DNA from: Halorussus gelatinilyticus
GTDB taxonomy: Archaea; Halobacteriota; Halobacteria; Halobacteriales; Haladaptataceae
Assembly: GCF_023238445.1 (NCBI RefSeq)
Contig: NZ_CP096658.1
Span: forward strand, 2,542,001 to 2,606,000
Direction: 5' to 3'
Length of the DNA: 64,000 nt
The position numbers were made by a program, and so were the translations under genes. This document shows positions 24,020-39,010 of the stretch, one piece after another (positions within the stretch are counted from its first letter, which is position 1; every line of letters starts with the position of its first letter). Below the pieces are notes generated by a model. The model had not been told where the DNA came from, did no database searches, and was given only the letters and a program-made list of their open reading frames with translations.

Positions 24020-24066
24020 CGTCTGTCTCGCCCGCGTCTGTCTCGTTCGGCGTCGGCCTCACTCCG
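24020..24066 (-). repeat. Degenerate 15-16 nt tandem repeat reaching into the globin stop codon
   Basis: Plus-strand units CGTCTGTCTCGCCCG, CGTCTGTCTCGTTCGG and CGTCGGCCTCACTCCG abut one another. The third contains the globin stop (TCA on this strand). The first two match at 12 of 15; the third matches at about 11 of 16. Confidence 0.4.
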
Positions 24067-24439
24067 CGGAGACGACGGCCGACCGGAGTTCGCCCACCGC
24101 GGCGACGACCGTCTTCCGGTCGTCCTCCGACACGTCGAACTCGGCCAGCGCGTCGTCGAGGTGGCGGGCGACGATTTCGAAGTCGCGCCCGTCGATACCG
24201 AGGTGGTCGTGGGCGGTTTCGAGGTCCCGACCGTCGTACTCGACCGGGCCGCCGGCCACCGACGAGAGGAACTGCGTCTGGTGAGCGCGGAGCGCCGACA
24301 TGTCGGTCTCCTCGAAGTAGTGTGCGATTCGCTCGTCGTCGAGGACGCGGTCGTAAAACGATTCCACGACGGCCGAAATCGCGTCTTCGCCGCCGAGGCG
24401 CTCGTAGAGGGTCCCGGACATCTGTCCGTAGCCAGACAT
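24059..24439 (-). CDS. Truncated haemoglobin (2/2 globin, group I type)
   Basis: 126 residues. LYERLGGEDAISAVVESFYD covers helices A-B with the B9/B10 Phe-Tyr, HQTQFLSSVAGGP is the E-helix and loop, and H in AHDHLGIDGRDFEIVARHL is the region of the proximal ligand. It binds haem and probably O2 or NO. A TATA-like AATAAATT lies 17 nt before the first ATG (24439) and 35 nt before the second (24421); the second start (MSGTLYERLGG) fits a leaderless promoter better. It is divergent from cheY, and a gas-binding globin next to an H-NOX taxis cluster is worth noting. Confidence 0.88.
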   Translation of the reverse strand: MSGYGQMSGTLYERLGGEDAISAVVESFYDRVLDDERIAHYFEETDMSALRAHQTQFLSSVAGGPVEYDGRDLETAHDHLGIDGRDFEIVARHLDDALAEFDVSEDDRKTVVAAVGELRSAVVSAE

Positions 24440-24583: not shown

Positions 24584-24955
24584 ATGAAGACCGGGATTCT
24601 CATCGTAGACGACTCGGAGTTCATGCGCCAACGGGTCAAGAGCGCGCTGGCCGACGACCAGTACCGAATCGTCGCCGAAGCGCCGAACGGCGCGTGGGCC
24701 ATCCAGAAGTACAAGGAGAACGCCGAGGAGGTGGACCTCATCCTGATGGACATCGTGATGCGGAAGGCCAACGGGCTGAAAGCGACCGCGGCCATCAAGA
24801 AACTGGACGACGACGTGCGGGTCATCATGTGTACCAGCGTCGGCCAGCGCCAGAAAATTCAGCTGGCGGCGCGGGCCGGGGCCGACGCCTACATCACCAA
24901 ACCCTTCGAGGACGAGGAGTTGACCGAGGCCATCGACGGGGTGGTGACGGGATGA
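24584..24955 (+). CDS. cheY: Chemotaxis response regulator CheY
   Basis: 123 residues, a lone receiver domain. LIVDDSEFMRQRV has the acidic pocket, the phosphorylated Asp lies in LILMDIVMRKANG, the switch Thr lies in VIMCTSVGQ and the Lys in AYITKPFEDEE. As in other archaea it should carry the signal from CheA to the motor through a CheF-type adaptor, but no cheF is present here. It is the first gene of the cluster; cheA follows after 57 nt with a GGAGGTG ribosome site. Confidence 0.95.
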   Translation: MKTGILIVDDSEFMRQRVKSALADDQYRIVAEAPNGAWAIQKYKENAEEVDLILMDIVMRKANGLKATAAIKKLDDDVRVIMCTSVGQRQKIQLAARAGADAYITKPFEDEELTEAIDGVVTG

Positions 24956-25012: not shown

Positions 25013-28000
25013 ATGGCCCCGACTGACGACGCCTTCTTCCGCGAGGCGAAGTCCCAGATCCGCGCGCTGAACGACGGCCTCCTCGCGGTCGAGCGCGGCG
25101 ACGCCGAGGTCGAAGTCGCCGACCTCTTCCGGGTAGCCCACTCGCTGAAGGGGTCGTGTCGCACTCACGGACTGGACGACGCCGGGGACCTCGCCCACGC
25201 CGTCGAGGACGTGCTGGACGCGCTCCGGGCGGGCGAGGTCGAACCGACTCCCGACCTCGTGGACGCGGCGCTCGACGCCGTGGACCTGCTGGAGGCGACG
25301 GTCCGGGCCGCCGCGGTCGGCGGTCAGGTGAAGGGAGACGCGGCTGCGACGCGGGCCGCGCTCCGGGAGGCGCTCGACGTGGCGCGCGCCGAGTCGCCCG
25401 GCGACCCCGGCTCCGGGGAGCCGTCGGAGTCTCTGACGCTGGACGGCCCCGCTTCCGGTCTCGGCGACTCCGACGACTGGGACCCCGCGGACGACGACCT
25501 GAGCGACGACGTGGTGGCGGCGCTCGAAGAGACCGACGAGTTCGACGACTTGGACGCGCTCCTCGACGAGGTGGACGCGCCGGAGGACGACGAGGAACTC
25601 GACGGCTGGGGGATGCTGGACGACGAGGCGGGCCGAGAGCGCGACGAGGACCCTGACCGGTCTTCCGAACCGGCCGAGTCCTCAGAATCGGCGGAGGCCC
25701 CCGAATCGACGGAGACCCCCGAACCGGCCGAGACGCCCGACGAACCGTCCTCCTTCTTCGAGCAGACCAAGGCGGAGGTCGGGGACGACGCCGACATCGA
25801 CGCGCTACAGGAGGACATCGACGCGGTGGAGTTCGGCGAGTTCGACGACGAAGACGAGTACACCATCGAGGAACTGATGGAACTCGAACCCGACGACCCC
25901 ACCGACGAACGCTCGGGCGACCTCACCGACGAGGCGTCCGGCGCTGGCGCGCCAGCGCCGGACGCCGACAGCACGGAAACCAGCGACGACTCGGAAGCCG
26001 GCGACGACCCGCTGGCGATGGACCCGCCGGCCGCGGACGACCCGAACGATAGGGTGGAACTGCCGCCGGACCTCCTCGGCGTCGGGCCGGACGCTGACGA
26101 CGAAACGGGCGAGCGGACCGCCGAATCGACCCCCGATTCAGACCCGCTCGCGGCAGACGACCCGAATTCGGAGTCGGTCGGCGACCCGCTTGGACTCGCC
26201 GACGCCGACCCGAGTTCCGACGACGCGCCAACCGTCGAGACCGGCGAAACCGACGACACCGACGATTCGACTTCGGGCGACCCCGGCGGTACGGAACCCT
26301 CGGAGCCGGAATCGACGGAATCGGACGACGGGACCGACGACGCGTCCGAAACCAACACCTTCGTCTTCGGTGACGAGGCCGAGACCGAATCCCCGTGGAG
26401 TGGCGAACTCGCGCAGACCGACGACCCCGTGGAAACCGACGAACTCGCAGAAACCGGCGACCACGCAGAAACCGGCGACCCCGAAGAAGTCGCGTCCGGC
26501 GAGGCGTCCGCCGCGCCAGCGGCGGACGCCGACGCCTCGCCGACCGAGGACGGGGCGAGCGAGGCGGCGGGCGATGCGGTGTCGGACGTCGTTCCGGATT
26601 CCGTACCGGACGCCGACGACGTTCCGGATTCCGACCTCGTGCCGGACTCGGACACCGTGCCGGACGCGGATTCGGTTCCCGAAACCGCGTCGCTCCCGGA
26701 CGCCGACCCGACGCCCGACGACGATTCGACGCCGGACCCCGAGTCGATGCCCGAGACCGACCTCGGCGTGGACTTGGACGCGGACTTCGACGCGGACCTC
26801 GGCGACGCCGAGGGGAGTCCGGACGCCGCCGCGACCGAGATGGACGTGTCCGTGGACGACGAGATGGCCGAGTTCGAGTCGCGCTTCGGCGACCGACTCG
26901 GCGAGCGCGCGGGCGACGACGACGAGGACGGCGCGGTGTTCCGGTCGGCGGTGACGACCATCGAGGAGAGCCGACTCGACGCCGAGCGATTCCCGACCGG
27001 CGGGCGCGCCGACCGCGAGCTCGAGGGCGACGAGTTCGACCGCTTGCAGGCGATGACCGTGGACGTGGACACCGCCGACGAACTCCTAAACGTCGCCGAA
27101 GAACTGTCGCTGACCCACCTCCGACTGGACGAGGCGGTCGGTCCCGGCACGGACGACGCCATCCGTGAGGAGGTCTCGAACCTCCTGCGAGTGCTGACGA
27201 AGTACCGCCGGACCGTGATGGACGTGCGTCTGATGCCGCTGGAAACAGCCATCGAGACGATTCCGAGGACGGTCCGGGACGTGGCGCGCTCGCAGGGCAA
27301 GGAAGTCGAGTTGGCGGTCAGCGACGCCGACGTGGAACTCGACCGCTCCATCGTGGACCGACTCCGGGACCCGCTGGTCCACCTCGCGCGAAACGCCGTG
27401 GACCACGGCATCGAGTCGCCCGACGAGCGCGAGGCCGCCGGGAAACCGCGGGCCGGAACGGTCGAGATTTCGGCCGAGCGCGTCGGCGACGAGGTGGTCG
27501 TGGAACTGGCCGACGACGGCCGGGGCGTCGAACCCGAGGCGGTCCGCGAGCGGGCCGTCGAAAACGGCGTCTGCTCGCGCGCCGAGGCCGACCGACTCTC
27601 CGACGACGAGACCTACGACCTGCTCTTCGAACCCGGCCTCACGACGGCCGAGGAGGTGACGGACGTGAGCGGTCGCGGCGTCGGGATGGACGTGGTGAAC
27701 CGGACCGTCGCGGACCTCAACGGCTCGGTCTCGGTCGAGAGCGAACCGGGCTACGGGACTACGGTCCGACTCCGTGTTCCGGTCTCCATCGCGCTCACGG
27801 AGGTCCTCTTCGTCGAGGCCGAGGGCCAGACGTTCGGGATTCCGATGGCGTCCGTCGAGCAGATTACGGCCGCGCCGCCGGTCGAGGAGAGCGAGGGCCG
27901 GGAGGTGGTCCGGCGCTCGAACCTCGATTTGGTCGGCGGACTCCCGGAAGGCGTCGAGGCCGACGACGCCTATCCGCTCCGGAGCCTCCGGAGCGCGCTC

Positions 28001-28300
28001 GACCTCGCCGAGCGCGACGACGCGGCGTTGGGGAGCGACGCGGACTCCGGGGGTACCCCCACCGAGTCCGACGGCCCCGCCGCGGCGTCCGCCGCCGACC
28101 CCGGCGCGCCGGACTCCCAAATCGTCTGGATTCGCCACGAGTCGGGGCGACTCGCGCTCAGATGTGACCGCGTGGTCGCCTCCCAGGAGGTCGTGGTCCG
28201 GCCCTACGGCGACCTGTTGCGCGACGTGCCCGGCGTCAGCGGCGCGACGACGCTCGGCGACGGCGAGGCAGTCAACGTACTGGACGTGGCGACGCTATGA
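25013..28300 (+). CDS. cheA: Chemotaxis histidine kinase CheA with very long acidic linker
   Basis: 1095 residues, well above the 650-700 usual. P1/Hpt lies at about 1-110 with phosphoryl site H43 in VAHSLKGSCRTHG. Residues about 130-660 are a low-complexity Asp/Glu/Ser/Pro/Thr region with repeats such as PDSDxxPDxDxVP; no P2 domain is visible. The P3 dimer helices start near 673. The ATPase has N box HLARNAVDHGIE (about 790), G1 DDGRGV (about 833) and G2 GRGVGMDVV (about 886). The C-terminal CheW-like domain has a Gly/Ala/Asp insertion near 1005-1035. The stop overlaps cheC as ATGA. Confidence 0.95.
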   Translation: MAPTDDAFFREAKSQIRALNDGLLAVERGDAEVEVADLFRVAHSLKGSCRTHGLDDAGDLAHAVEDVLDALRAGEVEPTPDLVDAALDAVDLLEATVRAAAVGGQVKGDAAATRAALREALDVARAESPGDPGSGEPSESLTLDGPASGLGDSDDWDPADDDLSDDVVAALEETDEFDDLDALLDEVDAPEDDEELDGWGMLDDEAGRERDEDPDRSSEPAESSESAEAPESTETPEPAETPDEPSSFFEQTKAEVGDDADIDALQEDIDAVEFGEFDDEDEYTIEELMELEPDDPTDERSGDLTDEASGAGAPAPDADSTETSDDSEAGDDPLAMDPPAADDPNDRVELPPDLLGVGPDADDETGERTAESTPDSDPLAADDPNSESVGDPLGLADADPSSDDAPTVETGETDDTDDSTSGDPGGTEPSEPESTESDDGTDDASETNTFVFGDEAETESPWSGELAQTDDPVETDELAETGDHAETGDPEEVASGEASAAPAADADASPTEDGASEAAGDAVSDVVPDSVPDADDVPDSDLVPDSDTVPDADSVPETASLPDADPTPDDDSTPDPESMPETDLGVDLDADFDADLGDAEGSPDAAATEMDVSVDDEMAEFESRFGDRLGERAGDDDEDGAVFRSAVTTIEESRLDAERFPTGGRADRELEGDEFDRLQAMTVDVDTADELLNVAEELSLTHLRLDEAVGPGTDDAIREEVSNLLRVLTKYRRTVMDVRLMPLETAIETIPRTVRDVARSQGKEVELAVSDADVELDRSIVDRLRDPLVHLARNAVDHGIESPDEREAAGKPRAGTVEISAERVGDEVVVELADDGRGVEPEAVRERAVENGVCSRAEADRLSDDETYDLLFEPGLTTAEEVTDVSGRGVGMDVVNRTVADLNGSVSVESEPGYGTTVRLRVPVSIALTEVLFVEAEGQTFGIPMASVEQITAAPPVEESEGREVVRRSNLDLVGGLPEGVEADDAYPLRSLRSALDLAERDDAALGSDADSGGTPTESDGPAAASAADPGAPDSQIVWIRHESGRLALRCDRVVASQEVVVRPYGDLLRDVPGVSGATTLGDGEAVNVLDVATL

Positions 28301-29592
28301 AACTCGACGTGGACACCCTCGGCACGTTCTACGAGATGGCCCGCGAGGGGGCCGGACTCGCCGCGAATCGCCTGAGTTCGATGACAGACATCCCGGCGCG
28401 GGTCAACGTCACGCACCTCAACTTCACCCGCGACGCCTCCATCGCCCGCGACCTGACCGACACGGGGTGGGTCGGCATCCGGGTCGGTCTCTCGGACGGG
28501 TTCGGCGGGACCTCGCTGCTGCTGTTCGACCGCGAGAGCGCCGCGACCATCGCCTCGGCGGTCGTCGCGGACATCCCGACGGTCGAGGAGGGGACGCTAC
28601 AGGACAGCACCGTGACCGAAATCGCCCAGATAATGAACAACGGGTTCGTGGACGGGTGGGCGAACGTGCTGGACACCAACATCGACGTGTCGGCTCCGAC
28701 CTACGTCGCCGCGGACCACCCCGACGAGTTTCTGGACGACGAGACGCTGGCGCTCGGCGGTGAGACGGTGGCTTCGGGGGCTGACGAGGCGGGGAGCGCG
28801 GACGACCTCGCGGTCCTGTTCCGGAACAACCTCGAAGCGGTCGGCGAGGAACTGACCTTCCGCCACTACCTCGTGCCCGACGGCGAGACGGTCCGACGGC
28901 TCTTCGAAGCCCGGACCGAGGAGCGCGCCATCGAGTTCGAGAAACTGGTCGGGTTCGACCGCATCGCCCAGCGCGGCGCGACGCAGGTCGCGTCGAACCT
29001 GACCCAGATGACCGGCATCGAGATGGACGTGGACATCCGGCGCATCAACTTCATCTCGCTCGACGCGATTCCGAGCGAGGTCTCGACCGAGCGCAAGATC
29101 GGCGTCGCGTTCAGTTTCCGAGGGATGCCCAGCGGCTACCTCCTCTTTCTGTTCGGCGAGGAGTCGGCCCGGCGGCTGGTCGCTCGGAGCGCCGAGACCC
29201 GGACCGCGGCGGGCCTCGGGGAGTTCGAGCGCGACGCGATTCAGGAGCTCTCGAACGTGATGGCCAGCGGGATGCTCGACGGGTGGGCGAACCTGCTGGA
29301 CACGAGCATCGACCACTCGACGCCCGCCTACGCCCACGACATGGGCGCGGCGGTCGTGGACCCCCTCGTCGTGGGACTGGGCGAATCTCAGGAGTTCGCC
29401 TTCGTCTTCGACACGCGCATCGAGGCGGTCGATACCGAGGTGGACCTCGACATCTACGTGATTCCCGACGAGGAGGACCTGCGCGAGGCGCTCGGCGCGT
29501 TCGAGATGGGCCGCGTGGCCGAGACGCGACCCGAGGCCGACACCGACATCTCCGACGAGGAGATGGACCTCGACTACTGGGAATCGCTGTGA
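28297..29592 (+). CDS. cheC: Tandem CheC-type phosphatase/adaptor (two CheC units)
   Basis: 431 residues made of two CheC units. The active-site pattern D/S-x3-E-x2-N is complete in the second (D313, E317, N320 in RDAIQELSNVMASG). In the first the Asn is replaced by Gln (E108 and Q111 in DSTVTEIAQIMNNG), so only the second unit is expected to remove phosphate from CheY-P. Each unit continues with DGWANxLDTxID. The gene overlaps cheA by 4 nt. The last 30 residues are acidic (DTDISDEEMDLDYWESL). Confidence 0.88.
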   Translation: MKLDVDTLGTFYEMAREGAGLAANRLSSMTDIPARVNVTHLNFTRDASIARDLTDTGWVGIRVGLSDGFGGTSLLLFDRESAATIASAVVADIPTVEEGTLQDSTVTEIAQIMNNGFVDGWANVLDTNIDVSAPTYVAADHPDEFLDDETLALGGETVASGADEAGSADDLAVLFRNNLEAVGEELTFRHYLVPDGETVRRLFEARTEERAIEFEKLVGFDRIAQRGATQVASNLTQMTGIEMDVDIRRINFISLDAIPSEVSTERKIGVAFSFRGMPSGYLLFLFGEESARRLVARSAETRTAAGLGEFERDAIQELSNVMASGMLDGWANLLDTSIDHSTPAYAHDMGAAVVDPLVVGLGESQEFAFVFDTRIEAVDTEVDLDIYVIPDEEDLREALGAFEMGRVAETRPEADTDISDEEMDLDYWESL

Positions 29593-29826
29593 GGGCCGGT
29601 TTTTCGATTTCGGGGACGACGCGGGGCGACCGCCGACGAGAGGCGTAGATTTCCCGCAGGAACGGCCAGAACAGTTATAGTATCGGTGTGACTTCGATTC
29701 GAACATGTATCAGCGTCGGAGGGGTCGCGCTGGCGTCCGAATCCGCCAGCAGGCGACGGCTCCCACCCGGCCGACCCGCCTTGCACCGACTCGAAACCGA
29801 CCCCTCACGAAACGGTGGTGTCAGTT

Positions 29827-30378
29827 TTGCACGGTATCGTACTGAAGGGGCTGAAGGACTTCGTGACGACGGAGTACGACCGCGAGGCGTGGCACGCGAT
29901 TCAGGACGCGGCGGGCGTCGCCGGCGAGGTGTACGTCCCCGTGACCGAGTACGACGACGCCGACGTGCTGGCGCTGGTCGAGGCCGCCTCGGAGGCGACC
30001 GGCGAGGACGTGCCGGACCTCCTCGACGCCTTCGGGCGGTTTCTCGTCCCGCCGCTGGTCGAGACCTACGGCGTCCACGTCGATACCGACTGGACCGGTC
30101 TCGAACTGATAGCCAACGTCGAGACGTACATCCACGAGGCCCTGCGCGCCAAGCAGCTCTCGACGTACACCCCGCCGGCGCTCGCCTCGGAGTGGGTCGG
30201 CGACGAGACGGTGCGCGTGACCTACACCTCCGAGCGCGAACTCTGTCCGCTGGCGAAGGGTCTGCTGACCGGCATCGGCGACTACTACGGCGAGTCGTTC
30301 GACGTCGAGGAGCCGACGTGTATGCTCGACGGCGACGACCGGTGCGAACTCCTCGTCAGCGGTCCGACCGAGGCGTGA
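29827..30378 (+). CDS. H-NOX (haem nitric oxide/oxygen binding) protein 1
   Basis: 183 residues if translation begins at TTG 29827, which gives the family start L/MHGIVLKGLKDFV and places GGTGGTG as ribosome site. In-frame GTGs at 29815 and 29818 add 3-4 residues. Proximal haem ligand H103 is in ETYIHEALR. The haem-propionate motif Y-x-S-x-R is VTYTSERELC. After the core comes EEPTCMLDGDDRCELLV, a two-Cys tail also present in the next gene. No obvious distal-pocket Tyr suggests NO rather than O2 binding. It is a likely soluble input to the neighbouring transducer. Confidence 0.82.
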   Translation: MHGIVLKGLKDFVTTEYDREAWHAIQDAAGVAGEVYVPVTEYDDADVLALVEAASEATGEDVPDLLDAFGRFLVPPLVETYGVHVDTDWTGLELIANVETYIHEALRAKQLSTYTPPALASEWVGDETVRVTYTSERELCPLAKGLLTGIGDYYGESFDVEEPTCMLDGDDRCELLVSGPTEA

Positions 30379-30475
30379 AACCGACCGCTCGCTCGGTGGC
30401 GCGTCCGTGCCACCGCCGACGCTCGCGACCGCCGGCGAACGCCCGGACCGCGCCGCCTTCCGGGAGAGACCAACC

Positions 30476-31069
30476 ATGCACGGAATCATCTTCAAATCGC
30501 TGAAAGACTTCGTGGTGCGCGACCACGGCCACGAGACGTGGGACGCGGTCCGCCGCGCGGCGGACCTCGACGGGCGCGTGTACTTGCCCATCGACACGTA
30601 CGACGACGGCGAGTTGATTCGACTCGCGGAGGCGGTCGGCGACGAGACCGGGACCCCGACTCCCGACCTGCTGGAGGCGTTCGGGCGGGTCGCGGCCGGG
30701 CAACTGCTCGACACCTACGGCAACGTCGTCGCCGACGACTGGACGACCCTCGACGTAGTGGCCAACGCCGAGGCGGGCATCCACACCGTCCTCCGGGCGC
30801 ACAACCCCGACCTCGACCCGCCGGAGTTGGTCTGTCGCCGGGAGCAGGGAGAAGAGGCTGGGACGAGAGAGGAGGGCGAAGCGAGCGAGGAAGACGAGAT
30901 GAGCGAGGGGCGAGTGCGGGTGGTCTATCGGTCGCCGCGCCGCCTCTGCTTCGTGGCGAAGGGCATCGTCCGCGGCGTGGCCGACCACTACGGCGAGGAG
31001 GTGCAGGTGACCGAACCGACCTGCATGCACGAGGGCGCTGACCACTGCGAACTGGTCGTGACCCGATAG
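30476..31069 (+). CDS. H-NOX (haem nitric oxide/oxygen binding) protein 2
   Basis: 197 residues, a clear paralogue of the preceding gene. It starts MHGIIFKSLKDFVVRDHGHE; H103 in EAGIHTVLRAH is the proximal ligand, VVYRSPRRLC is the Y-x-S-x-R motif, and the tail PTCMHEGADHCELVV keeps the two Cys. It carries an extra Glu-rich insertion of about 25 residues (EQGEEAGTREEGEASEEDE) before the YxSxR strand. The two genes arose by tandem duplication and may differ in gas affinity. It lies directly upstream of the transducer gene. Confidence 0.85.
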   Translation: MHGIIFKSLKDFVVRDHGHETWDAVRRAADLDGRVYLPIDTYDDGELIRLAEAVGDETGTPTPDLLEAFGRVAAGQLLDTYGNVVADDWTTLDVVANAEAGIHTVLRAHNPDLDPPELVCRREQGEEAGTREEGEASEEDEMSEGRVRVVYRSPRRLCFVAKGIVRGVADHYGEEVQVTEPTCMHEGADHCELVVTR

Positions 31070-31206
31070 GTCCGCGCCGCCGTGGGGGTCGCCGCGGGGT
31101 CGCCGCGAGGCCGACCGCGCTCCCCGCTGGCGGAACCGAGCCGAGAGCTATCAGTCGAAATTTCTTCTCTCCGATATTTCATAACTAACCGCTCATGTTG
31201 CGTGAA

Positions 31207-31217
31207 GATTTATTACG
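31207..31217 (+). promoter_or_regulatory. Promoter of the transducer gene
   Basis: GATTTATTACG, 23-33 nt before the ATG of the transducer. It suggests that transducer-cheW-cheC-cheD can be transcribed apart from the upstream cheY-cheA-cheC-H-NOX part. Confidence 0.5.
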
Positions 31218-31239
31218 CCCTGCCGAATGGGTTTGCTCA

Positions 31240-33060
31240 ATGTCTACCTTTCCGCGCGCACTCGTCCCTGCGTTCGTCAGGCGACGGTACTCGCTGAAGT
31301 TCGCCCTGACGATGGTACTCGTCGGCGCGGCCGCGGCCGGCGGCGTGTACGCGACCGGTCAGTTCGACCGAACTGTCGTCGGCGCGACGCTCGGCGGCGC
31401 GCTCCTCGCTGGCGTCGTCGGAACCGTCGTCTCGTGGCGCGCGAGTCGGTCGCTCGACCGACTCGTCGCCAGCGCCGACCGCCGGGCCGACGGCGAGGAA
31501 CCGTCGTTCGAGTCGGCCCGCATCGACTGCGTTGGCCGCGTCGCCGACTCGATGGCCGAGACCCACGACACCCTGCTCGAACAGCACCGGGCCAGACTCG
31601 CCGCGGAGGACCTGAACGCCCACGTCGAGCAGACCGCCGAGGAGTACGGCGAGGTCATGCGCCGGTGCGCCGACGGCGACTTGGACGAGCGGATGGACCC
31701 CAGTTCCGAGAGCGAGGCGATGGAACGGGTCGCCACCGAGTTCAACGGAATGATATCGACGTTCGAGGAGACCGTGGACAACCTCACACGGTTCGCAAAC
31801 GAGGTGGCGACCTACAGCCAAGAGGTCACGCTCAGCACCGAGGAGGTCAGCGACGGGAGTTCGCGCGTCGTGGACTCGCTCCGGGACATCTCCGCAGAGG
31901 CCGAGACCCAGACCGACGACCTGCAGGCCGCGACCGACCAGATGAACCGCCTCTCGACCGCCGTCCAAGAGGTCGCGGCCTCGACCGACGAGGTGGCCTC
32001 CATCGCCGAGCGCACCGCCGAGACGGGCCGGGAGGGCCGTGAGGCCGCCACCGACGCCGTGGAGGGGATGAACGACATCGAGAGCGAGTCCGAGGACACC
32101 GTCGAGGCAATCGAGAGCCTGGAAGCCGAGGTCCAGCAGGTGGACGAGCTCATCGACTTCATCTCGGAAATCGCCGAGCAGACGAACATGCTCGCGCTCA
32201 ACGCCCACATCGAGGCGTCGCGGGCGGGCGAGCAGGGCGCGGGCTTCGCGGCCGTGGCGAACGAGATCAAGGAACTCGCCGAGCGCACGAAGGAGGCGGC
32301 GGCCGACATCGAACAGCGTCTGAACGGGATTCAGGACCAGACCGACCGGACCGTGGACGAGGTCCGGGACACCAGCGAGCGCATCGCCCAGCAGACCGAC
32401 TCGGTGGAGAACGCCGCCGAAGCGCTCGCGGACATCGCGGGCTACGCCCAGGAGACCAACGCCGGCGTCCAAGAGATTTCGGACGCGACCCAAGAGCAGG
32501 CCGACTCCACGAAGGAGGCCCTCGACATGGTGGAGGAGGCCGCCGCGGTCAGCGAGGGCATCACCGACGAGGCGACGACGGTCGCGGCCTCCGCCGAGTC
32601 GCAGACGATGGCTCTCTCGCAGGTCTCCGAGAGCGCGAGCGACCTCGCCGCGCAGGCGACCCAACTCAGCAACGCGCTCGACTCGTTCGACACCGACGAG
32701 GCGCGCGCGGCGACTTCGGCGTCCGGGAACGAGGAAGTCGGCGACGCGAGCGGGACCGTCGACGCCGGAGACGCCGACGGGACCGAGACCGCCGACGCCG
32801 AGGACGGCGACGACGCCGTCCACCCCGACGAGCGCGACACCGAGGCAGTGGCGGTCGCCTCGACGGCCGAGGGGAGCGAGTCGGACTCGCCGGTCCCGAA
32901 CGAGGAAGCCGACCCGTCGGCCGAGGGCGACGCAGACCTCGTCGCCGAGGATGACGCAGACCTTATCGCCGACGACGATGCGGACTCCCTCGACGAGGAC
33001 GCCGGATCCGACCCGCTCGCGGACGACGCGGACCCGCTGGCGGGGGATAAGGAGGTCTGA
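31240..33060 (+). CDS. Methyl-accepting transducer with two membrane helices and no extracellular domain
   Basis: 606 residues. TM1 (about 18-38) and TM2 (about 45-65) are joined by only about 6 residues, so there is no outside sensor domain. A HAMP-like region lies at about 130-165 and the long coiled coil at 170-480. The signalling tip is [20 protein letters not shown] (near residue 310). The last 115 residues are acidic and disordered and do not end in a CheR-tethering pentapeptide. The layout recalls transducers that take the signal from a partner protein, as sensory-rhodopsin transducers do; here the H-NOX pair is the obvious candidate (inference). Confidence 0.92.
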
Positions 33061-33063
33061 CGG

Positions 33064-33567
33064 ATGAGCGGCGAGATTCGCGCGACGACGCCCGAGACCA
33101 CCGAGGACCGACGCGAGTGGGTCGAGTTCGTCCGGTTCCCGCTCGGCGACCACGCCTACGGGCTGGAACTCGGCCGCGTCGAGCAGATAGTCCCGGACCC
33201 CGACGTGACGCCGGTGCCCCAGACCGGCCCCGCAATCGCGGGCGTGACGAATCTGGGAAGCGAGATTCCGGTCGTGGTGGACGCCCGCGCGCTCCTCGGA
33301 CTGACGCCGGGACCGGACGACGCGGAGCCGACGCTCCTCGTGCTGGACCGCGACGACGACCGGCCGACCGGCCTGCTGGTCGAGGCGGTGACGGGCATCG
33401 ACGCCCACCACGTCGATACCGTCGCCGCGCCCCACGAGGCGGCGTGGGACCCGCCGGTCGGTCGGCGGTGGTTCCGCGCCGTGGTCGAGGACTCGGAGCG
33501 CGCCGACCGGCCCATCGGCGTCCTGGATTTGGACGTGGTGGTAGACAACGCGAGGGACCAGTCGTGA
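33064..33567 (+). CDS. cheW: Chemotaxis coupling protein CheW
   Basis: 167 residues, one CheW domain. FVRFPLGDHAYGLELGRVEQ opens the first subdomain and AGVTNLGSEIPVVVDARALL the second. It links transducer and CheA in the receptor array. The ATG is 3 nt after the transducer stop and the TGA overlaps the GTG of the next gene, so the three are one translational block. Confidence 0.92.
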   Translation: MSGEIRATTPETTEDRREWVEFVRFPLGDHAYGLELGRVEQIVPDPDVTPVPQTGPAIAGVTNLGSEIPVVVDARALLGLTPGPDDAEPTLLVLDRDDDRPTGLLVEAVTGIDAHHVDTVAAPHEAAWDPPVGRRWFRAVVEDSERADRPIGVLDLDVVVDNARDQS

Positions 33568-34352
33568 CGCCGGAGAACGACGGTGCCGAGCGCGCGAGCA
33601 GCGATGCCGGGTACGCGAGTGACGATGGCCGGGCCGACGACCGCGAGCGTAGGGACGGACCGGCCGGAGCGGAATCGGACGCCGCGACGGACTCGGATGC
33701 CGGGGCGGACGCGGCGTCCGCGCCGGAGTCGTCGGGGCTCGCCGAGGAATCCTCGCTCCCGTTGAAGACGCTGGCGGTGCTGAACTGGTTGGGCGACGAG
33801 GGCGTCCGTGGCGTCGAGTCGCGGTTGAACGACGTGCTGGACGACGACCTCGACGTGACGACCGAGCAGGTCAAAATCGGCTACGCCGAGCAGGAGACCG
33901 TGGCCTCGCAGTTCCGCGCCGAGGACCGGGCCGGGGCGCGCGTCCTGCTGAGCGAACCGCTGGTCGGGAACGTGCTGGTCGTCTTCCCGATGGAGAGCGC
34001 GAACAAGGCCGCGGCGCTGATGCTCCAGCGCGCCGTCGATGACCTCTCGTCCGTCTCGACGGAGATGGGTCGGGACGCGCTGACCGAACTCTGCAACATG
34101 ATGGCCAACGGCTTCGTGGACGAGTGGGCGACGCTGTTCGAGACGACCATCGACACCGGGTCGCCGGTCGCGGTGCAGGACCCCGAGCGGACGCTGGTCG
34201 CGCGCATCCTCAAGCAGTACGAGGTCGGCCTGTTCATCCGGTCGCGGCTCCGGATTCCGCGCCACGACGTGGACGCGGCCATCTACATGTTCCCCGGCAA
34301 GGAGGAGTTCCTGACGAAGCTCTCGGCGGTGGACCTCGGGGTGATAGAGTGA
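33564..34352 (+). CDS. cheC: CheC-type CheY-P phosphatase, single unit
   Basis: 262 residues: about 70 disordered Asp/Ser/Ala-rich residues, then one CheC unit. The active-site pattern is complete (E175 and N178 in RDALTELCNMMANG), unlike the first unit of the tandem CheC upstream. GTG start overlaps the cheW stop (GTGA), and its own stop overlaps cheD in the same way. Archaeal and Bacillus CheC bind CheD; the adjacent gene order fits that. Confidence 0.88.
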   Translation: MTPENDGAERASSDAGYASDDGRADDRERRDGPAGAESDAATDSDAGADAASAPESSGLAEESSLPLKTLAVLNWLGDEGVRGVESRLNDVLDDDLDVTTEQVKIGYAEQETVASQFRAEDRAGARVLLSEPLVGNVLVVFPMESANKAAALMLQRAVDDLSSVSTEMGRDALTELCNMMANGFVDEWATLFETTIDTGSPVAVQDPERTLVARILKQYEVGLFIRSRLRIPRHDVDAAIYMFPGKEEFLTKLSAVDLGVIE

Positions 34353-34900
34353 AGACCTACGAGACGAACCCGGAAGACCCCGACCGCGAGCGCCGGATGG
34401 TCGGCGTCTCGGAGTACGAGGTCGTCGCCGACGGCTCGACGCTTGTCGCCTACGGTCTCGGCGCGTGCGTCGGGTTGGCGGTGTACGACCCCGAGAACGC
34501 GGTCGGCGGGCTGGCCCACGCGATGCTCCCGCGCCGGTCGGAGGGCGACGGCACCGGCGACGGCAAGTACGTCGATGCGGCGGTCGAGACGATGCTTCGC
34601 GAGGCGGTGTCGGCGGGCGCGAGTTACGGCGCGCTGGAGGGGTACGTCGTCGGCGGGAGCGACCTGCTGGACCTCCGGGAACTCCCGCGCGAGGTCAGCG
34701 ACGACAACGTGGCGACCGCCCGCGAGACGTTCGCCGACCTCGACGTGTCGGTCGAAGGCGAGGACGTGGGCGGCGGTCGCGGCCGGACCGTGGAGTTCGA
34801 CACCGAGACCGGCCGCGTCGCGGTCCTGACCGCGTACGATCCGGAGCCGGTTCTGCTCCGAGTTGGCGACGACGGAGACGCGGACGCGGGCGAGTCGTAG
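34349..34900 (+). CDS. cheD: Chemoreceptor glutamine deamidase CheD
   Basis: 183 residues. The catalytic Cys is in AYGLGACVGLAVYD and the His in GLAHAMLP, the order expected for CheD. VVGGSDLLDL follows where the family has the third conserved region. CheD deamidates receptor glutamines and is controlled by CheC. It is the last gene of the cluster, coupled to cheC by a GTGA overlap. No methyltransferase or methylesterase partner is encoded in the window. Confidence 0.92.
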   Translation: MKTYETNPEDPDRERRMVGVSEYEVVADGSTLVAYGLGACVGLAVYDPENAVGGLAHAMLPRRSEGDGTGDGKYVDAAVETMLREAVSAGASYGALEGYVVGGSDLLDLRELPREVSDDNVATARETFADLDVSVEGEDVGGGRGRTVEFDTETGRVAVLTAYDPEPVLLRVGDDGDADAGES

Positions 34901-36539: not shown

Positions 36540-38911
36540 TCACCTGACGGTAATCGCCGGTTGCTCGAACAGCGCGCCGAGAAGTTTGTTCTCGGCCAAT
36601 CGGACGTGCTGGTGGAACGTCGCGTCGGCCACGTCGAGCGAGTCGGCAACCTCTTGGGCGCTGCTCTGGCGGGGCCACTCGAAGAACCCGGCGAAGTAGG
36701 CGGTCTCCAGCGCGGTCCGCTGGCGGTCGGTGAGTTCGTCGGTCAGCACCTCGTCGAGTCGCCGGAGCGACTCGTCGGACCGCGAGACCTGCCGCCGCGT
36801 CACGACCTCGACGGCGGGGTAGGCGTCCCGGATGCGCTCGACCACGCCGCGGACCTCGACCGCCGGCGGGAAGTGCAGCGTCATGTGGTAGTCGCCGTCC
36901 TCGACGGTCGCGCTCTCGATGTAGCCCCCGCTGGACGCGACCAGCGAGACGACCGGGGGTTCCGAGAGGCGGGCCTCGAAGGTGGTCGTGCCGAACCGCT
37001 CGCGGAGGACCGACACGTCGGTCCAGTAGGGCAGTTTCTCGGGGAGCGCGGCCAGCGTCTCCATCGCGTCGCCGGTCGCGGTGCCGTACTCGATGAACTC
37101 GTCGTCGCCGACCGGGACCGCCCTGTCGAACGAGATGGTCCCCTCGCTCTCGGGAACGCCGACCGCCTCGAACACGTCGCGGATGCGGAACTCCAACTCG
37201 ACCACCTCGTCGCTCATCAGCGCCCGCTTGCGCTCGACGCCGGCGATGGCGTGGCCCACGACCTCGCCGAGTTGCCGGACCACGCGTCGCTCCTCGCCCT
37301 CGAACGCGCCGACGCGGGCGGAGTAGACGTTCAGCACGCCGTACAGCGATTCCTCGTGGACCACCGGAATCGCGGCCGACGACCGGAAGCCGTGGGCGCG
37401 GGCGTGGTCCTGCCAGTTGGCGTAGTTGGTGTCCTCGAAGACGTTCTCGGTCACCTGAATCTCCTCGGTCCGGACCGCCCGCCCGGTCGGGCCGCGCGAC
37501 GCCTCGTCGTCGGGGGCCACCGAGATATCGATGTCGTCGAGGTACCCCTCGACGCCCGCCTCGGCGGTGAGTTCGACCGTCTCGGCGTGGGCGTCCACCT
37601 CGCCGAACCACGCGAACTCGTAGGACTCCGCGGCGGCGAGCCGGTCGCAGACCACCTGTTCGACCTGCTCGCGAGTGGACTGCTGGACCAGCGCCTCGTT
37701 GATGTCGCGGACGACCGCGTTCAGGTTGTTGAGCGCGGTCAACTGCTCGCGGTGGCGCACCAGTTGGGCCTCGCGGGCCACCCGGTCGTAGGCCGCCTCC
37801 GCGTTCGCGCCGAGCAGTTCGACCAACTGGCGCGTCCGGTGGTCGAACTCGCCGGGTTCGCGCGACCCGACGACGAGGATGCGTGGTCGCCCATCGGGAC
37901 GAACGACCCCGCGCGCATCTCGGTGTCGTCGGGGTTCACCCGCAGGTTCGACGCCTCGACCACGTCGTCGTGGTGGACCGGGTCGCCGCCGACGAACGCG
38001 CTCCCGGTGATACTGCCGTCGTCGGCCGAAACCGGCGGGAATTCCTCGCGCATGAACTCCGCTTCGACCGACCGCTCGGCGGGCAGGAGTCGCCCCTCGT
38101 CGGCATCGTGGCGGTAGACGATGACGCCAGGCAGGTCGAGAACCTCTGTGGCGGCGTCCACGACTATCTCGCCGACCGCCTCGCCCGACTCCGCTCCGAG
38201 GAGATCCCGACTGGAGTCGTGAAGCGACTTCAGGGTCTCCTCGAACCGCTTGCGGTCGGCCACGTCGCGGACGACGCCGGTCCGGGCGTAGCGGTCGTCG
38301 GGACCGTACGGTCCGAACCGACTCTCGACCGGAATCGTCTCGCCGTCTTTCGTCCGGAGTTCGAACTCCAACGTCGCGCCTTCGCGGTCGTCCCCCGCCA
38401 CCGCCGCGCTCAACTCCTCGGCCGTCTCGTTGACCGACTCGCCGTGGACGAGACTGCTCTGCGACCCGAGCAGTTCGTCGCGGTCGTAGCCCGTCATCTC
38501 CACGAACCGCTGGTTGGCCATCACGAACCGCTCCTCGGAATCGAGCGCGTACACGCCGTCCCCGAGGGTCTCGACGACCGTCTCGTAGCGTTCGAGTTCG
38601 CGCTCGGTCCCCTTCCGGTCGGTGTCGTCGGTCGAGTCGGCGGCGGAATCGACGGCGGAATCGGCCGTGTCGGTGGCCGTGCCGTCGGTCGAGTTCGCCG
38701 CTTCGGGGGACCGCCACCAGACCCGACCGCGCGCGCCGACCTTCTTGGTCTCGATGTCGCCGCGGTCGGCGAGTCGTTCGAGGCGGTTGTATGCGGTCCG
38801 GCGCGAGCAGTCGAGTTCGTCCGCGACTTCGCTCGTCGTGTAAGGCGTCGAAGGCAGGTCCGCGTGGTCGAAGACCGCGAGGGTGTCTGCGAGTGCGTCC
38901 GCGGCGTCCAT
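36540..38911 (-). pseudogene. Bat-type multi-domain regulator (HTH-PAS-GAF-GAF-HTH-10) broken by one frameshift
   Basis: One gene split over two frames. The 5' part gives a winged HTH (TTSEVADELDCSRRTAYNRL), a PAS domain (VYALDSEERFVMANQRFVEM) and the first half of a GAF domain, up to GSFVPMGDH. From there the frame is lost and the next frame resumes with ILVVGSREPGEFDHRTRQLV, the rest of that GAF, a second GAF and the C-terminal HTH-10 (LTDRQRTALETAYFAGFFEW). One missing base near 37881-37885 explains it: a GG read as G. Restored, it would have about 790 residues. This is either a true pseudogene or a base-calling error. Confidence 0.75.
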
Positions 38912-39010
38912 TGTCGTCTCCCAAGCGCCCGAGTCGCATAAGCTATTCCGTCAACGGAAACGACTCGACCTGGGGCGAGTCGGGGGTGACCGCGGGGTCC
39001 TGCGGGTCGT

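Follow-up and report, generated by a model that had tools for sequence, protein, structure and literature searches.

Signalling through H-NOX proteins has been described for bacteria and animals in the literature that we searched. The stand-alone H-NOX proteins of Shewanella oneidensis and Vibrio cholerae are free-standing sensors that act on a separate signalling partner, either a histidine kinase or cyclic-di-GMP enzymes; they lack the distal tyrosine and carry three cysteines of a zinc-type site, the fourth ligand of which is His or Gln in the S. oneidensis protein, and V. cholerae H-NOX needs no haem to respond when such a site becomes oxidised (PMC7108781). In the H-NOX-MCP fusions of strict anaerobes (e.g. 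Thermoanaerobacter/Caldanaerobacter) the sensor forms one polypeptide with a methyl-accepting transducer, has the distal tyrosine and binds O2; a tyrosine at this position accompanies O2 binding in H-NOX, with a hydrophobic residue found instead in NO sensors (PMC12329717). Haloarchaeal taxis runs from Htr-type transducers through CheA, CheY and CheF to the archaellum, and the occurrence of CheF is held to be strictly correlated with that of che genes (PMC6718144). Bacteria, lastly, have ‘alternative cellular function’ systems: a second Che cassette alongside the one for motility, with an output that is likely not swimming. A literature search, which mostly did not cover subscription papers, found no paper that treats H-NOX together with haloarchaea.

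We read the locus described here as an NO-responsive chemosensory pathway, complete in itself, in which a soluble protein senses the gas and the output is probably not the archaellum; a reading to which we give a probability of about 0.6. Working along the plus strand of the window (the whole 64,000-nucleotide stretch of Halorussus gelatinilyticus DNA analysed), Pfam scans identify CheY, CheA, CheC, H-NOX1, H-NOX2, a transducer, CheW, CheC2 and CheD in that order, so that transducer, CheW, CheA and CheY all lie together in the H-NOX cluster, with a globin gene at its edge:

24059 to 24439, minus strand: truncated globin of bacterial type (PF01152, 6.0e-23), divergent, at the 5' edge of the module
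24584 to 24955, plus strand: module CheY (Response_reg, 3.1e-27)
25013 to 28300, plus strand: module CheA, the second CheA of the genome (Hpt, HATPase_c and CheW domains)
28297 to 29592, plus strand: CheC-type phosphatase (CheC, 8e-13)
29827 to 30378, plus strand: H-NOX1 (HNOB PF07700, 1.9e-32), TTG start
30476 to 31069, plus strand: H-NOX2 with a Glu-rich insertion (HNOB PF07700, 3e-31)
31240 to 33060 (alternative start 31195), plus strand: sensorless methyl-accepting transducer with a transmembrane hairpin (MCPsignal, 6e-37)
33064 to 33567, plus strand: CheW (CheW, 4e-19)
33564 to 34352, plus strand: CheC2, a second CheC-type protein (CheC, 8.5e-7), its GTG start overlapping the CheW stop
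34349 to 34900, plus strand: CheD (CheD, 4.8e-18), its GTG start overlapping the CheC2 stop

For H-NOX1 we chose the TTG at 29827, which aligns with the family-invariant M-H-G start, the open reading frame itself extending back to a GTG at 29815; the family alignment likewise makes the ATG at 31240 the likely start of the transducer, in preference to 31195. The stretch ahead of that start (31070–31239) is richer in A/T and may be a promoter, in which case H-NOX and transducer are perhaps not strictly co-transcribed here. Pfam scans of the module genes revealed no CheB, CheR or CheF, and we found no output gene within the module, its flanking genes differing between the three families that carry it (f1, f3 and f5). 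Shortly downstream, and outside the set of genes shared by the three families, lies a Bat-type regulator (GAF, BAT and HTH_10 domains; 36543–38939, minus strand).

The full module, sharply bordered and in one or other of two gene orders, is found in all three. Its carriers are, in f1, this genome, G383 and, by similarity, strain LT46; in f3, Halocatena marina and Actinarchaeum halophilum strains YIM 93972 and YIM A00013; and in f5, Haloferax marinum with its relatives and Salinigranum salinum. In f1 and f5 an orthologue of the globin gene sits at the edge of the module, and these module globins are 57–69% alike among themselves as against 54% to the second globin of this genome; the link to the globin put forward in the original prediction thus holds as a proximity conserved in two families.

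The genome encodes another CheA at 3.60 Mb, near the archaellins and CheF, the core of which is 45% identical to that of the module CheA; the same genome has archaellins and two CheF proteins. Because it is this other CheA that lies beside the swimming machinery, the H-NOX cluster is a second, self-contained chemosensory module and not the swimming cluster. Gene content across ten f1 genomes follows the same division: two CheAs accompany H-NOX in this genome and in G383, whereas six congeners and two other family members are without H-NOX and have one CheA each. The module CheYs and CheAs form groups apart from their archaellum-cluster homologues (support 91 and 79, respectively, with midpoint rooting; in the CheY tree the ‘main’ sequences of G078 and G245 were disregarded as resembling CheB receivers, and the main CheY is missing for several genomes). 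Module CheYs share the motifs MDIVM(R/A)(K/Q)ANG and TSVGQR where the main CheYs of f1 have MDIVMPIRDG and TSIGQEE; the loops near the phosphorylation site therefore differ, and in Methanococcus the CheF interface comprises helix 1 together with the loops beside the phosphorylation site (PMC9126983). The altered loops suggest that the module CheY may have a different partner from the main CheY.

It is in family f3 that the module appears to part from the archaellum. Halocatena marina (G277) and Actinarchaeum (G183) each yielded just one CheA and one transducer, both within the module, and neither archaellin nor CheF gave a match in either genome, the archaellin search matching in seven comparison genomes; a weaker Arch_fla_DE match is left in both. 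The Actinarchaeum clade is reported to be non-motile and to have lost one pilus system as well as the archaellum (PMC10067837). As the two organisms belong to one GTDB genus, the loss of the archaellum counts as one event. They appear to break the rule that ties CheF to che genes (PMC6718144), and since the module is the only chemosensory system found in these non-swimming, hyphae-forming relatives, its output is probably not swimming. For the Halocatena/Actinarchaeum clade, we consider it highly probable on these gene inventories that the main output is something other than the archaellum; for the present organism, the chances appear even, the counterpoint being that the module-bearing genomes of f1 and f5 have both archaella and CheF. 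A further-reaching proposal, in which the H-NOX/NO pathway never controls swimming and is the sole chemosensory system of hyphae- and spore-forming haloarchaea, NO being tied to differentiation or surface behaviour, we regard as tentative.

The original prediction had the gas guiding taxis. Here, phosphorylated module CheY would bind CheF and alter archaellar switching, such that cells swim from or toward NO (or O2). The archaellins and paired CheF proteins of this genome speak for such an arrangement, as do the many other haloarchaea, numerous Natrinema and Natronorubrum among them, in which an H-NOX-transducer pair occurs with no CheA nearby and presumably feeds the main che system. Against this, CheA and CheY are both supplied by the module itself, the latter being unlike the main CheY in the very loops discussed above, and the module persists where archaellin and CheF were not found. 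We therefore consider taxis rather unlikely, while that part of the proposal which makes H-NOX the input of the transducer has held up well, as set out below.

Apart from the tandem H-NOX1 and H-NOX2, the genome (3.67 Mb) has no HNOB gene. Their nearest solved relative is S. oneidensis H-NOX, alignment to which indicates that His103, the Y-x-S-x-R motif and Cys139, Cys164 and Cys172 are kept in both proteins, bearing out the predicted pair with its haem motifs intact. For an AlphaFold model of H-NOX1 (pLDDT 88.9), Foldseek ranks H-NOX structures first, with a TM-score of about 0.89 against the S. oneidensis protein; NCBIfam assigns H-NOX1 no family, and H-NOX2 a weak, sub-cutoff V4R-type match. 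The two copies are 47% identical, and the duplication is therefore probably old. In a tree of H-NOX proteins, the root of which is unplaced, H-NOX2 and the second copies from G383 and Halocatena marina fall together, and single-copy genomes have an H-NOX of the copy 1 type. The suggestion that the copies divide roles, drawn from the Glu-rich insertion and a shared ‘two-Cys tail’, did not survive comparison: the insertion is private to the H-NOX2 of this strain, being absent from three related second copies, and the tail proves to be three cysteines (C139, C164 and C172, Shewanella numbering) of a family-wide zinc-type site, invariant in the alignment of all 44 His-bearing haloarchaeal H-NOX proteins.

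Which gas, then, might be sensed? We take Tyr140 of the Tt protein, whose sequence was placed by motif positions only, to be the distal tyrosine of O2-binding H-NOX. Each of the 44 His-bearing haloarchaeal proteins has a hydrophobic residue (V, L, F, W or I) at the corresponding position, and none has Tyr; NO is for this reason likelier than O2. From these residues, H-NOX1 and H-NOX2 would be expected to bind haem through His103, with NO their likely ligand; of the two gases first named, NO is thus favoured and O2 has become the less likely.

Of the 391 Halobacteria sampled, 85 encode HNOB proteins. We collected the surroundings of 114 further H-NOX loci, and in the linkage survey of 117 genes there are 35 with a same-strand transducer no more than 2.5 kb away, as a rule immediately downstream and in many cases overlapping. 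This linkage goes closely with retention of the haem ligand: of the 42 H-NOX genes with His103, 34 are transducer-linked, but of the 71 that lack it just 1 is (Fisher p 4e-20, with no correction for phylogeny; two genes cut at contig ends left out), and the sole linked H-NOX without His103 lies 1.5 kb from a transducer that bears a large external domain. Co-conservation across related genomes, named beforehand as one point on which the idea could fall, is therefore found, in several haloarchaeal families. Other features of the surveyed loci were also recorded. A PRPP-synthetase-like gene adjoins 58 of them. HNOB proteins without His103 form a haloarchaeal branch of 71 of 115, with Tyr in about 40 and the zinc-type cysteines mostly kept (for example L104:8318-8857, L124:7860-8399, L144:8400-8972 and about 70 similar loci). 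At L065:4075-8422 an H-NOX with His103 has no transducer and lies downstream of a 1006-aa open reading frame whose beginning resembles a PAS-domain signalling protein, and an H-NOX with 42% identity to H-NOX1 (L184:8980-9543) lies in a metagenome bin that carries the label Deltaproteobacteria, either by transfer or by an error of binning.

The same survey bears on the idea that these proteins act mainly as redox or zinc sensors, through oxidation at the three-Cys site, haem being secondary. The cysteines are indeed kept throughout the His-bearing proteins and in most members without His103, and the V. cholerae protein provides a precedent (PMC7108781); linkage to a transducer follows His103, however, and not the cysteines, and position 161, where the fourth ligand is expected, is Glu in 41 of the 44 His-bearing proteins (H-NOX1 and H-NOX2 included) rather than His or Gln. 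We consider this explanation improbable, though still a rival to reckon with.

The transducer itself has two hydrophobic segments with about five residues between them and no external domain, as judged by hydropathy; a shallow, low-confidence model likewise places helices at residues 11–38 and 44–82 with a short turn between. Together with the CheC gene at 28297–29592, this confirms the predicted setting of the H-NOX pair, between cheC and a sensorless transducer. In a hydropathy scan, no external sensor domain was seen in the transducers adjoining His-bearing H-NOX genes, three of which had no transmembrane segment called at all by this crude procedure, perhaps owing to wrong starts. HtrI also has a transmembrane pair with a short loop and the genome holds one rhodopsin, yet a transducer serving a sensory rhodopsin or other membrane partner, with the H-NOX genes as bystanders, is scarcely credible given that the only rhodopsin adjoins its own transducer 2.2 Mb away and that hairpin transducers track H-NOX across many genomes. 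On gene arrangement and the pattern of haem-ligand retention, it is very likely that H-NOX provides the input of this transducer. The coupling idea is stronger than when first claimed, and ‘taxis’ is its weaker half.

We thus return to a proposed NO-responsive pathway with a probable output of its own, for which gene content, conservation, residue patterns, the module's distinctness from the che genes of swimming and its persistence without detectable archaellin or CheF were all computed directly. In such a pathway the H-NOX proteins would bind haem through His103, most likely detect NO, and act on the cytoplasmic part of the sensorless transducer, presumably by contact; the transducer would tune the cluster’s own CheA through CheW, and this CheA phosphorylate the module CheY, with CheC, CheC2 and CheD resetting the system. 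The globin encoded alongside may serve to remove or otherwise handle the same gas. Most likely, module CheY would signal to some target that is not the CheF-archaellum switch; adhesion, cell form and surface structures are candidates. The module offers a natural test for archaeal Che outputs beyond swimming, and as genetic tools exist for Haloferax, one of the genera that bear it, the question of output is directly testable.

Set against the systems with which we began, the haloarchaeal proteins share with the stand-alone H-NOX of S. oneidensis and V. cholerae their fold, His103, YxSxR, the missing distal tyrosine and the three zinc-type cysteines, as well as the reliance on a separate partner; they differ in their archaeal host, in the Glu that stands at the fourth zinc-type ligand, and in that the partner is a transducer backed by an entire CheA-CheY pathway. 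The pathway would therefore extend H-NOX signalling to archaea and to a new kind of partner. Linkage to a methyl-accepting transducer is common to the H-NOX-MCP fusions, although here the genes are separate and the tyrosine is absent. With the haloarchaeal taxis system the module has in common its Che families and an Htr-type transducer, whilst lacking CheF, CheB and CheR, belonging to separate CheY and CheA lineages, and being present where archaellin was not found. Like the bacterial alternative-cellular-function systems, it is an additional Che cassette in a genome that already has one for motility, and its output is likely non-swimming; here, though, the host is an archaeon and the input a putative haem sensor acting in trans.
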